This document shows positions 13,734 through 16,587 of a DNA stretch of 38,024 bases, one piece after another; the stretch's first letter is position 1, and every line of letters starts with the position of its first letter. The stretch spans positions 1-38,024 of the IMG/VR virus record IMGVR_UViG_3300035162_001736, one strand, 5' to 3'. The stretch is from a virus. The position numbers and the translations under genes are program-made. The notes below the pieces were generated by a model, which searched no databases, was not told the DNA's origin, and saw only the letters and a program-made list of their open reading frames with translations.

Positions 13734-14168
13734 TTAGCTCCTACACCAGTCGTGTTCTTTGTATTCGTTTTCAAGAAAGCCGTAAAGATGCATGTCTTCA
13801 TCGTCATTGTACGCTTTTCTCATAATTCCTTCTTTCTGAAAGCCTATTTGTTCTACAAATTTCTGACAGGCTACGTTTGAACTGGCAATTAAAGCCGTGC
13901 TTCTGACTGCCTTTAGCTCATCAAACACCATTTGAAACAAGCCGTTGAACATCATAATGGTGCTCTTTGGAGTCAAAAAACAATCGGCAACAATATTTAC
14001 GTCAATATTTCTCTTGGTAAAATTAGTCAATAATATTACGCAAGCAAAATCGCCTTTTTCATTAACTGACGATAGAGCTCTAAAGACTTCTGGAGAGCTC
14101 TTGACGCCAAGGTGTTTGCTAGCCCACTTCTCTGCCTTTTCTTCATCTTGATAGCCGATATATCTCAT
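13734..14168 (-). CDS. GNAT-like acetyltransferase homologue
   Basis: I choose the ATG at 14168 (144 aa), because it overlaps the previous gene's stop as ATGA; a longer reading from a GTG at 14207 would overlap that gene by 43 bases. The C-terminal half has the GNAT end pattern: ASSNVACQKFVEQIGFQKEG, then MRKAY and DMHLYGFLENEY. The usual acetyl-CoA loop (Q/RxxGxG/A) is not evident before the helix FQMVFDEL, so activity is uncertain. Similar small GNAT-like proteins occur inside structural operons of marine phages. A role in modifying a virion or host protein is possible but not shown. Confidence 0.6.
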   Translation of the reverse strand: MRYIGYQDEEKAEKWASKHLGVKSSPEVFRALSSVNEKGDFACVILLTNFTKRNIDVNIVADCFLTPKSTIMMFNGLFQMVFDELKAVRSTALIASSNVACQKFVEQIGFQKEGIMRKAYNDDEDMHLYGFLENEYKEHDWCRS

Positions 14169-14404
14169 AGTGTTGTCTGAACAAATCTCTCTGCCCACTC
14201 TCTCCACTGGCTAATGTCATAAGAATAAGGATCGGGAAAGTCTTCTACTAAATTTGTAGCCCGGTTGTATTGTGTTGCCCAGTCTTGCCACTTTTCCGGG
14301 TCATTCAAAGGCTGATAAACACCAAACGCATCAAAATCTATAATCAGGCAGTCTGCCCAGTCTTGTAATTCTATTCCTACAGGTAGCGTTACGCTTAGGC
14401 TCAT
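14165..14404 (-). CDS. Small conserved-looking hypothetical protein
   Basis: This 79-aa acidic protein is rich in Trp and Asp (QDWADCLIIDFD, EKWQDWATQYN, QWREWAERF), with repeated W-x-x-W-A type motifs suggesting a small helical domain. It overlaps the gp10-like gene start region by four bases and the GNAT start by four, so all three are translationally coupled. Position right after the tail-hub gene suggests a small tail or assembly role. I do not recognise a characterised family. Confidence 0.6.
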   Translation of the reverse strand: MSLSVTLPVGIELQDWADCLIIDFDAFGVYQPLNDPEKWQDWATQYNRATNLVEDFPDPYSYDISQWREWAERFVQTTL

Positions 14405-16587
14405 CCTAAATCCGTCCCATCGCCACTATCAAAATGACCGATAATTTGACCCATTTGGTAATCTCCATACAGCTCATTCGATTCAAATCTTACTCTTAAT
14501 TCTCTGCGCTGCTCTTTGAGCATTACTATCTGCTCATAAGGCTGTACAGCTGACTCTGGAAAAGTAAAAGTAGTGCTGATAACTTCTGGCGCCCTGGCGT
14601 TAGCCCTGCCTGTTACATTGACGGTCATTGGGCCGCTTTGTACAAAATCTGGCTCAATGGTTGTGCAGCGCAGATATCTGTTGGTTCCGCTAACCAAAGT
14701 AGAAAGATCAGCAGTTTCAAAGAAAGACTTTATTGGCCTGACAGTAGATCCATCATATTCGTCTGATTTGAATTCATGCCGCCAGACTTTGTAGCCAGAA
14801 CCTCTGGCATCTGTATTGACTTGACCGCCCATGCCGCTGTGAATGGTGCAATAGTAATATAAAGTAGGCGTTCCAGTCCCGACAACGATTTGCGTGTACG
14901 CTCCTGGGTTGCCCGGCACGCCAGCAACCGTGACTCCAGCTGTGTACTCTGCACCTCCTCCATGCGTTCCATCTAGCGTTGTCGAAAGACGCAAAGGATG
15001 ACCTGCATTATTCCCTGCCGACTGATCAAAACGGTAGGTGTTACCTTCAACAAAAGTCAGAGTAGGTTGCGCTCCTCCGCTCATATTGTATTTGTTCCCA
15101 GAACCCGCGTTAACAACAGTAACAGCAAGAATTGACAAAGGATCTACTGCAAAAAGAGAGGGCTCGACACCTGTTAAGATTGGCGCCGCAAAAGAATTAT
15201 TAAAATGACCCGCTGAGCGGCCATAGTTGGGAAGTTCGGTATCATACCAAGTGTTTTCTCGGACGTTATAAACTACTGCATGCGTACACTCAGTTGCTGT
15301 TCCGCGAGGATAACACCACCATATCTCGCCATACTTTGGCACTTGAAAGCAGAATGTTTTGCTTTGCTCGTTGACGTTGATTCCGTCAAAGAAGTAATTA
15401 AGATTCATGCTGTTTGGCACTTCGCGCACTACGCCGTTGAACATGTAGAAGCGATCTACTCCGGCCCAGTAAAATACGCCATCATAATCTACAACGCAGA
15501 ACTGCGACATTATTGAAGTGCCGGTGGAAACTATGTCAAACTGAAAGACAGTCGCTCCACCCGTAAATGTTGCTCGAATAACTGCGTCAAACGCCCAGAA
15601 GAGCCCTGCAGGAGCAGTTCCAGAGCCTGCTCGCATTGGCAGACCTTTGATTATCTTTTGCCCCCAGACGCGAGCTAGGCCGCTTCCTGATCCAGTTAGA
15701 TCTGTAGGCTCTCCGGCTACGGACCAACCAATAATGCCATCAGTACCGTAATAAAATAAGTAAGGATGAAGACTAACAATCCCGCCTGTGACATTAGCAT
15801 TAGGCGGTAGAGGTATGCTTCTTAAATCGCCCGTACCTAAAACTTCTCCAAAAAATATTTGACCGTCTTGGTCGTTGCATACGCAAGTACCATTGGGCGC
15901 TACCGAGGCAATTAAATAATTTTTATTGCTAGAAGAGCCATACTGAACATCAAACATCCAGTAGTTAAAAGGATTGGCCAATAGCGCATCAGAGCCGTAG
16001 TCAAAGTTGACTAGAGTTGATGTCAGCGTAGTCAAAGTGTTGGTAATTATAAATCCGTTAACCTGGTCGCCTGTGGTAACTGACGTGATAGTTATAACAG
16101 CGCCTGCCGCAGCAGCAGTGTAATTAGGTGTTGAGGTAAATGCAGTAATATTTGAGGCAACGTCAGTAGCTGTCTGGTCTATAGTGGTATTAAAAGCCAC
16201 TGCACCGGACATAATGTCAATACCATCAACGGCAATCATATTTACTGAGCCGCTAGCACCCGCCAAAGTGACAGTTCCATACGCGCCAGTAGCAGCCGGA
16301 GTTCTGTCAGTTATTATTGAGCTATTTCCAGTTGCGTCAAGAGTGAATCGCTCTACTTTATTAGCCCCGCCAGAGTGACAGTAAACGTAAAGCATCTGCG
16401 TAAAAGTGGAGAAGCCACGGCTTATTTCTTGCAAGAATTTTTGAGTGGTTTTATAGCCTCCAATTTTTCTAGGCAACGCTCTTTGCCAGCGAACCCACTG
16501 ACCGTCAGTGTAAAAATCGCCTTCATACTTAGTTCCATCCCTTTTAATGCCGGGATTAGACTTTAAGACTGCAGTCTGAATAGGCAT
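14401..16587 (-). CDS. P22 gp10-like tail hub / DNA stabilisation protein with inserted domains
   Basis: This 728-aa protein opens with a segment common in marine podovirus-like phages (SNPGIKRDGTKYEGDFYTDG). The body has beta-propeller-like repeats (about 197-480), with motifs such as YLIASVAPNGTCVCN and DGVFYWAGVDRFYMFNG. The end QRRELRVRFESNELYGDYQM is typical of gp10-type packaged-DNA stabilisation or hub proteins. Two modules interrupt it: residues of about 101-195 (a beta-rich VDGIDIMSGAV / YTAAAAGAVITI domain) and about 484-595. The second resembles a cupredoxin with His530, Cys580, His583 and Met586. It probably closes the portal channel and joins fibers. The assignment rests on pattern, not alignment. 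Confidence 0.6.
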   Translation of the reverse strand: MPIQTAVLKSNPGIKRDGTKYEGDFYTDGQWVRWQRALPRKIGGYKTTQKFLQEISRGFSTFTQMLYVYCHSGGANKVERFTLDATGNSSIITDRTPAATGAYGTVTLAGASGSVNMIAVDGIDIMSGAVAFNTTIDQTATDVASNITAFTSTPNYTAAAAGAVITITSVTTGDQVNGFIITNTLTTLTSTLVNFDYGSDALLANPFNYWMFDVQYGSSSNKNYLIASVAPNGTCVCNDQDGQIFFGEVLGTGDLRSIPLPPNANVTGGIVSLHPYLFYYGTDGIIGWSVAGEPTDLTGSGSGLARVWGQKIIKGLPMRAGSGTAPAGLFWAFDAVIRATFTGGATVFQFDIVSTGTSIMSQFCVVDYDGVFYWAGVDRFYMFNGVVREVPNSMNLNYFFDGINVNEQSKTFCFQVPKYGEIWWCYPRGTATECTHAVVYNVRENTWYDTELPNYGRSAGHFNNSFAAPILTGVEPSLFAVDPLSILAVTVVNAGSGNKYNMSGGAQPTLTFVEGNTYRFDQSAGNNAGHPLRLSTTLDGTHGGGAEYTAGVTVAGVPGNPGAYTQIVVGTGTPTLYYYCTIHSGMGGQVNTDARGSGYKVWRHEFKSDEYDGSTVRPIKSFFETADLSTLVSGTNRYLRCTTIEPDFVQSGPMTVNVTGRANARAPEVISTTFTFPESAVQPYEQIVMLKEQRRELRVRFESNELYGDYQMGQIIGHFDSGDGTDLG

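Follow-up and report, generated by a model that had tools for sequence, protein, structure and literature searches.

The window, that is the whole stretch of DNA analysed here, is a 38,024-base IMG/VR virus record. It carries an ORF for a tail nozzle protein, which hosts the only copy of the cupredoxin domain present in the window. The features referred to below are as follows.

14401-16587, minus strand: tail nozzle (hub) protein, the domain host (728 aa ORF; nozzle structure matches and phrog_3287)
15973-16293, minus strand: second optional inserted domain of the nozzle protein, residues about 99-205 (comparison of relatives)
15190-15588, minus strand: conserved nozzle core adjoining the cassette, residues 334-466 (PHROG 3287 and PDB nozzle match)
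14797-15165, minus strand: inserted cassette, residues about 475-597 (borders from comparison with cassette-free relatives)
14764-15162, minus strand: cupredoxin-fold domain as modelled, residues 476-608 (pLDDT 89.1, pTM 0.80; cupredoxin structure matches)
14998-15000, minus strand: His530, first predicted metal ligand (invariant in 55 copies; aligns with the first ligand His of plastocyanin)
14848-14850, minus strand: Cys580, predicted thiolate ligand at a strand end (conservation, model, profile-profile alignment with plastocyanin)
14839-14841, minus strand: His583, predicted ligand (conservation in diverse and ligand-blind sets; plastocyanin alignment)
14830-14832, minus strand: Met586, predicted axial ligand (conservation in diverse and ligand-blind sets)

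A profile of 22 relatives of the ORF product matched solved nozzle proteins, namely 9nwi (E=6.3e-26), 8zkm (1.7e-15) and 8zkk (about 2e-15), and all of these matches cover the core adjoining the cassette. Both 8zkm and 8zkk were deposited as nozzle, whereas 9nwi, which consists of six chains, bears only the depositors' name 'capsid and scaffold protein'. The virion structural protein family phrog_3287 matched the same ORF over residues 334-466 (E=9.9e-23). The initial annotation, made from the sequence alone, had labelled the product a tail-hub protein; the label is supported, since the profile matches solved nozzles, and tail nozzle is the more exact name. A model of the whole nozzle protein based on 22 relatives reached a pLDDT of 41.5, which is too poor to place the cupredoxin domain on the nozzle.

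Comparison of 95 nozzle relatives revealed the cassette at this site in 33 and a short loop in 62. The cassette takes the place of a 5-residue KNDGG-like loop, the junctions reading LTGV-KNDGG-GYKVW in cassette-free relatives and LTGV-cassette-GYKVW in those that carry it. Relatives L127-L132, whose 276 flanking residues are 95% identical, were cleanly cassette-free. Seven cassette changes were needed on a tree of the core, at least 5 of them on well supported branches. In L133-L136 the cassette was nested in the second inserted domain and not at the site used in the window, and in three cassette-free records the cupredoxin domain occupied a separate 258-residue frame. Since 62 close relatives have only the short loop here, four of them carrying the domain at the other site, it is dispensable for nozzle function. 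When the domain was masked, the other carriers formed 16 groups without detectable mutual similarity, and these 16 virion-protein backgrounds include fibres, baseplate gp9 and minor tail proteins. Among marine phages the domain is a cassette that can be exchanged, and its spread takes in both tail and baseplate proteins.

From 38 diverse rows, AlphaFold modelled the domain as a beta sandwich with pLDDT 89.1 and pTM 0.80, the well-ordered core comprising residues about 484-595. In the model Cys580 ends a strand, and His583 and Met586 lie in the next loop (model residues 105, 108 and 111). Foldseek placed copper nitrite reductase (HdNIR, 2.3e-4) and rusticyanin (4.6e-4) at the top of the PDB matches, followed by multicopper oxidases. 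By VIA-align, 2dv6 was matched with Z=10.0 and an rmsd of 3.0 over 103 residues and rusticyanin with Z=8.7, and all 50 listed entries were copper proteins with the cupredoxin fold. A VIA Z near 8 may by itself reflect a common arrangement; here the list was uniform and the whole domain was covered. With a Greek-key beta-barrel fold as the criterion for membership, the model predicts that the domain belongs to the cupredoxin superfamily.

Conservation of the ligands was followed in several sets of copies. An iterative profile search retrieved 141 copies in 124 loci. When 55 diverse copies, 31-84% identical to the window's copy, were aligned over 191 columns, only the four columns of the putative site (H, C, H and M) were invariant; rows of this alignment had been pre-selected for the Cys, not for the other three ligands. 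Without the Cys filter all four ligands were present in 39 of 45 non-redundant copies, the other six being without the set or ending before it. A ligand-blind set, fetched by the N-terminal 44 residues only, comprised 80 loci, one of them truncated at a contig end, and 78 of the 79 complete copies had all four ligands. The usual His-to-Cys distance among these was 50, and one copy (L262) had an additional residue ahead of the Met. Since the ligand-blind copies are closely related, with a median column conservation of 0.87, the diverse set of 55 is the stronger test. Across non-redundant copies the ligand set was kept or lost together. We infer, from sequence alone, that the four residues are under selection as one unit, as a metal site predicts. 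The criterion for a type-1 copper site, i.e. His, Cys, His and an axial Met in this order and conserved, was met, with the ligand distances in the model unmeasured. The residue following the first His was Pro in over 90% of copies in the diverse-copy alignment. Classical type-1 sites carry Asn or Ser at this position; therefore the second shell differs, and the site is perhaps unusual there.

The initial annotation had named His530, Cys580, His583 and Met586 as ligands in a cupredoxin-like domain, and all four positions were exact. Its span of 14803-15140 corresponds to residues 483-595, and the cassette borders, judged against cassette-free relatives, are about 475-597 (14797-15165). A predicted fold other than a cupredoxin barrel had been set beforehand as grounds for refutation; the fold came out as cupredoxin, with copper proteins as the best solved matches. 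The suggestion of type-1 copper or other metal binding in a virion is supported by fold and ligand conservation, without data on copper uptake.

Two individual copies depart from this ligand set. In L236 (601-1320) the second His is replaced by Gln (CDNQSGM), which is the sole ligand change in the ligand-blind set, and L124 from phage DSL-LC03 of Dishui Lake, the one lake phage sampled, is a degenerate copy without the ligands.

A link to copper proteins was also detectable by sequence profiles. The profile of 55 copies matched CuNIR in the PDB at E=1.9e-4 and plastocyanins at E about 0.02, amid chance antibody matches. The first profile, built from 12 close copies, found only antibody in the PDB, and success needed a profile of diverse copies. 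Alignment by hhalign with plastocyanins from picocyanobacterial genomes gave P=4.7e-5 and a probability of 68%, with H530, C580 and H583 falling on copper ligands, the identity of which is established in plastocyanin. Single-sequence searches with the window protein alone yielded no Pfam, NCBIfam or PDB match to copper proteins. The gathering cut-off of PF00127 was not reached: the window protein gave no match, the best value was E=0.015, in 2 of 12 relatives, and the window's own virus record gave none. Kinship to the cupredoxin superfamily is detectable by profiles, through CuNIR and plastocyanin. Recent capture of a host plastocyanin is unsupported, because the link to cellular plastocyanins is at superfamily level only.

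Among known systems, the N-terminal cupredoxin domain of Hyphomicrobium CuNIR (2dv6, 6tfo) was the best structural match, with 21% identity over the 103 residues aligned. It is part of a bacterial enzyme, whereas the phage domain is a tail-protein cassette in which Pro follows the first His. The fold class is shared by plastocyanin (PF00127), three of whose ligands (both His and the Cys) align with those of the phage domain, but the Met is two residues closer in the phage (C-x2-H-x2-M) than in plastocyanin (C-x2-H-x4-M). The petE gene of cyanophages is a separate metabolic gene (PMC2984593). Rusticyanin resembles the phage domain in structure but its loop length is unlike. The loop of amicyanin is C-x2-H-x2-M, and the His-to-Cys distance is 47 in plastocyanin, 53 in rusticyanin and 39 in amicyanin. 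The phage domain has the amicyanin loop but not the amicyanin distance (50 against about 39), being nearer the other two in this respect. Hence the ligand order and spacing of the amicyanin kind, claimed in the initial annotation, held for the loop and failed for the first His, and amicyanin membership was dropped because of this distance.

Iron-binding HxH motifs in phage tail fibres are a precedent for metal in tails (PMC11705849), but they differ in fold, residues and metal, and the phage cupredoxin is one compact domain per chain. Ig-like accessory virion domains are likewise optional and exchanged between unrelated virion proteins; the cassette differs from them in its cupredoxin fold and conserved metal-ligand set. 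No Pfam or NCBIfam family covers the cupredoxin domain as an exchangeable virion part, and no description of a cupredoxin or of copper in phage virions was found in the literature searched, most subscription papers being outside the search. The fold has long been known; an exchangeable virion cupredoxin domain is undescribed in Pfam, NCBIfam and the literature searched.

A tblastn search of 50,697 phage records with a threshold of E<=1e-3 found the domain in 260, from marine phages, so that the expectation of copies in other marine phages held. The carriers were phages of Synechococcus, Prochlorococcus, Pelagibacter and Methylophilales, together with marine single-virus records, and S-TIM5, HTVC028P and P-SSM2 are cultured carriers. 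The annotated carrier proteins were tail fibres, gp9 'baseplate wedge tail fiber connector', baseplate wedge and virion structural proteins, in agreement with PHROGs. A structural library of viral proteins searched with the domain model gave 65 matches at E<=0.001. Few picocyanobacterial genomes possess the domain with intact ligands (6 of 151, one of them likely a phage contig). A bacterial origin was considered and rejected, the genome-collection matches being phage-like where examined and rare in picocyanobacteria; one such match, L092, sits in a phage tail-fibre-like gene.

Several individual occurrences deserve mention. Two picocyanobacterial proteins of about 616 residues (L301 and L302) start with this same cupredoxin domain, in which the ligands are kept. 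A 189 kb contig (C3) of the Prochlorococcus single-cell genome G024 has the domain five times, in giant frames (locus L106), as well as a PF00127 plastocyanin match of its own, and this contig is likely a cyanophage genome. At L057 (5644-6300) a cupredoxin domain is joined to a short N-terminal segment in which a Cys-x2-Cys pair occurs twice (CDVCG...CPECW) and which is zinc-ribbon-like. The BFVD entries A0A481Z6J5, A0A481Z7Q7 and A0A481YVH3, which match the model, are 'beta-sandwich protein' of Pithovirus/Marseillevirus giant viruses with 124-169 residues.

Taken as a whole, the domain is likely a metal-binding cupredoxin cassette with a complete type-1 ligand set, where metal binding is inferred without any metal measurement. 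Our best reading is that tails display an accessory domain which binds metal and is type-1-copper-like, both the metal and the role being inferred. In this reading the site would bind one metal ion, most likely copper, which may be acquired while the virion assembles or, once the host has lysed, in sea water. Because the cytosol holds little free copper, uptake after lysis is possible. A nozzle would display about six copies of the cassette if it is hexameric, an assumption based on the six chains of 9nwi. The domain is exchanged among fibres, baseplate and nozzle like other accessory virion domains. The most likely role, and the weakest step of the inference, is that of a metal-dependent display domain which would aid engagement of the host envelope by the tail, whether by a surface contact that contains copper or merely as an adhesin module stabilised by metal. 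Such a host-contact role is inferred solely from placement in fibres and baseplates, and we hold it with more doubt than belief. Contact with the host envelope nevertheless ranks slightly above metal-based stability, and redox use ranks lower.

The closest competitor is a metal-stabilised structural cassette, in which the ion only locks a small beta sandwich serving as spacer or decoration, without any contact or redox function. This remains possible, as the domain is exchangeable, dispensable in the nozzle and present in many unrelated virion proteins, with its four ligands selected as a unit; however, the marine-only spread and the placement in tail fibres and baseplates hint at a specific role, and other virion domains are stable without metal. 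It may also be that the domain, once loaded with copper, acts as a 'Trojan horse' or as a ligand for the host surface, and that marine hosts recognise it through their proteins for copper handling or electron transfer. The analogy with the iron-loaded tail fibre hypothesis (PMC11705849), the presence of the domain in fibres, gp9 and nozzle, and its sharing by phages of unrelated marine hosts speak for this possibility, but no receptor is known, the hosts are taxonomically diverse and there is no experiment.

A redox-active virion domain, which would scavenge oxidants such as superoxide in sunlit sea water or transfer electrons during entry, appears unlikely. The complete type-1 ligand set with axial Met and the marine surface hosts are compatible with it, but no partner or acceptor was seen and the Pro after the first His is unlike classical sites. 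A type-1 site by itself carries electrons and is not an enzyme. Least probable of all is a metal-free adhesin that reuses the fold and in which something other than metal binding keeps the four residues conserved. Degenerate ligand-less copies do exist and L236 has His changed to Gln; against this, the four ligands were the sole invariant columns, the set was kept or lost together, and it was complete in all but one of the ligand-blind copies.

Returning to the preferred reading of a metal-binding display domain, a bolder form of it is a mobile copper-binding cassette shared by marine tailed phages on their tails and baseplates, with virion copper joining in infection and virus particles forming an unrecognised pool of bound copper in sea water; we consider the evidence to fall a little short of favouring it. 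As the four ligands are kept across hundreds of marine phages, many virus particles of the ocean may carry bound copper, although copper binding is untested. The carriers infect Prochlorococcus, Synechococcus, SAR11 and Methylophilales, which are among the most abundant ocean bacteria. Metals in phage tails have been discussed mainly for iron, and a type-1-copper-like site would add copper. The conserved site would allow a clear test of metal-assisted infection and the naming of many unannotated virion proteins, and since cultured carriers exist the copper question is directly testable.

Elsewhere at the locus, the second optional insert of the nozzle protein (GTVTLAGASGSV...) is missing from L017, L144, L145, L149 and others. 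Directly downstream of the nozzle gene, amid tail genes, lies a GNAT-like acetyltransferase gene (13734-14207, minus strand).
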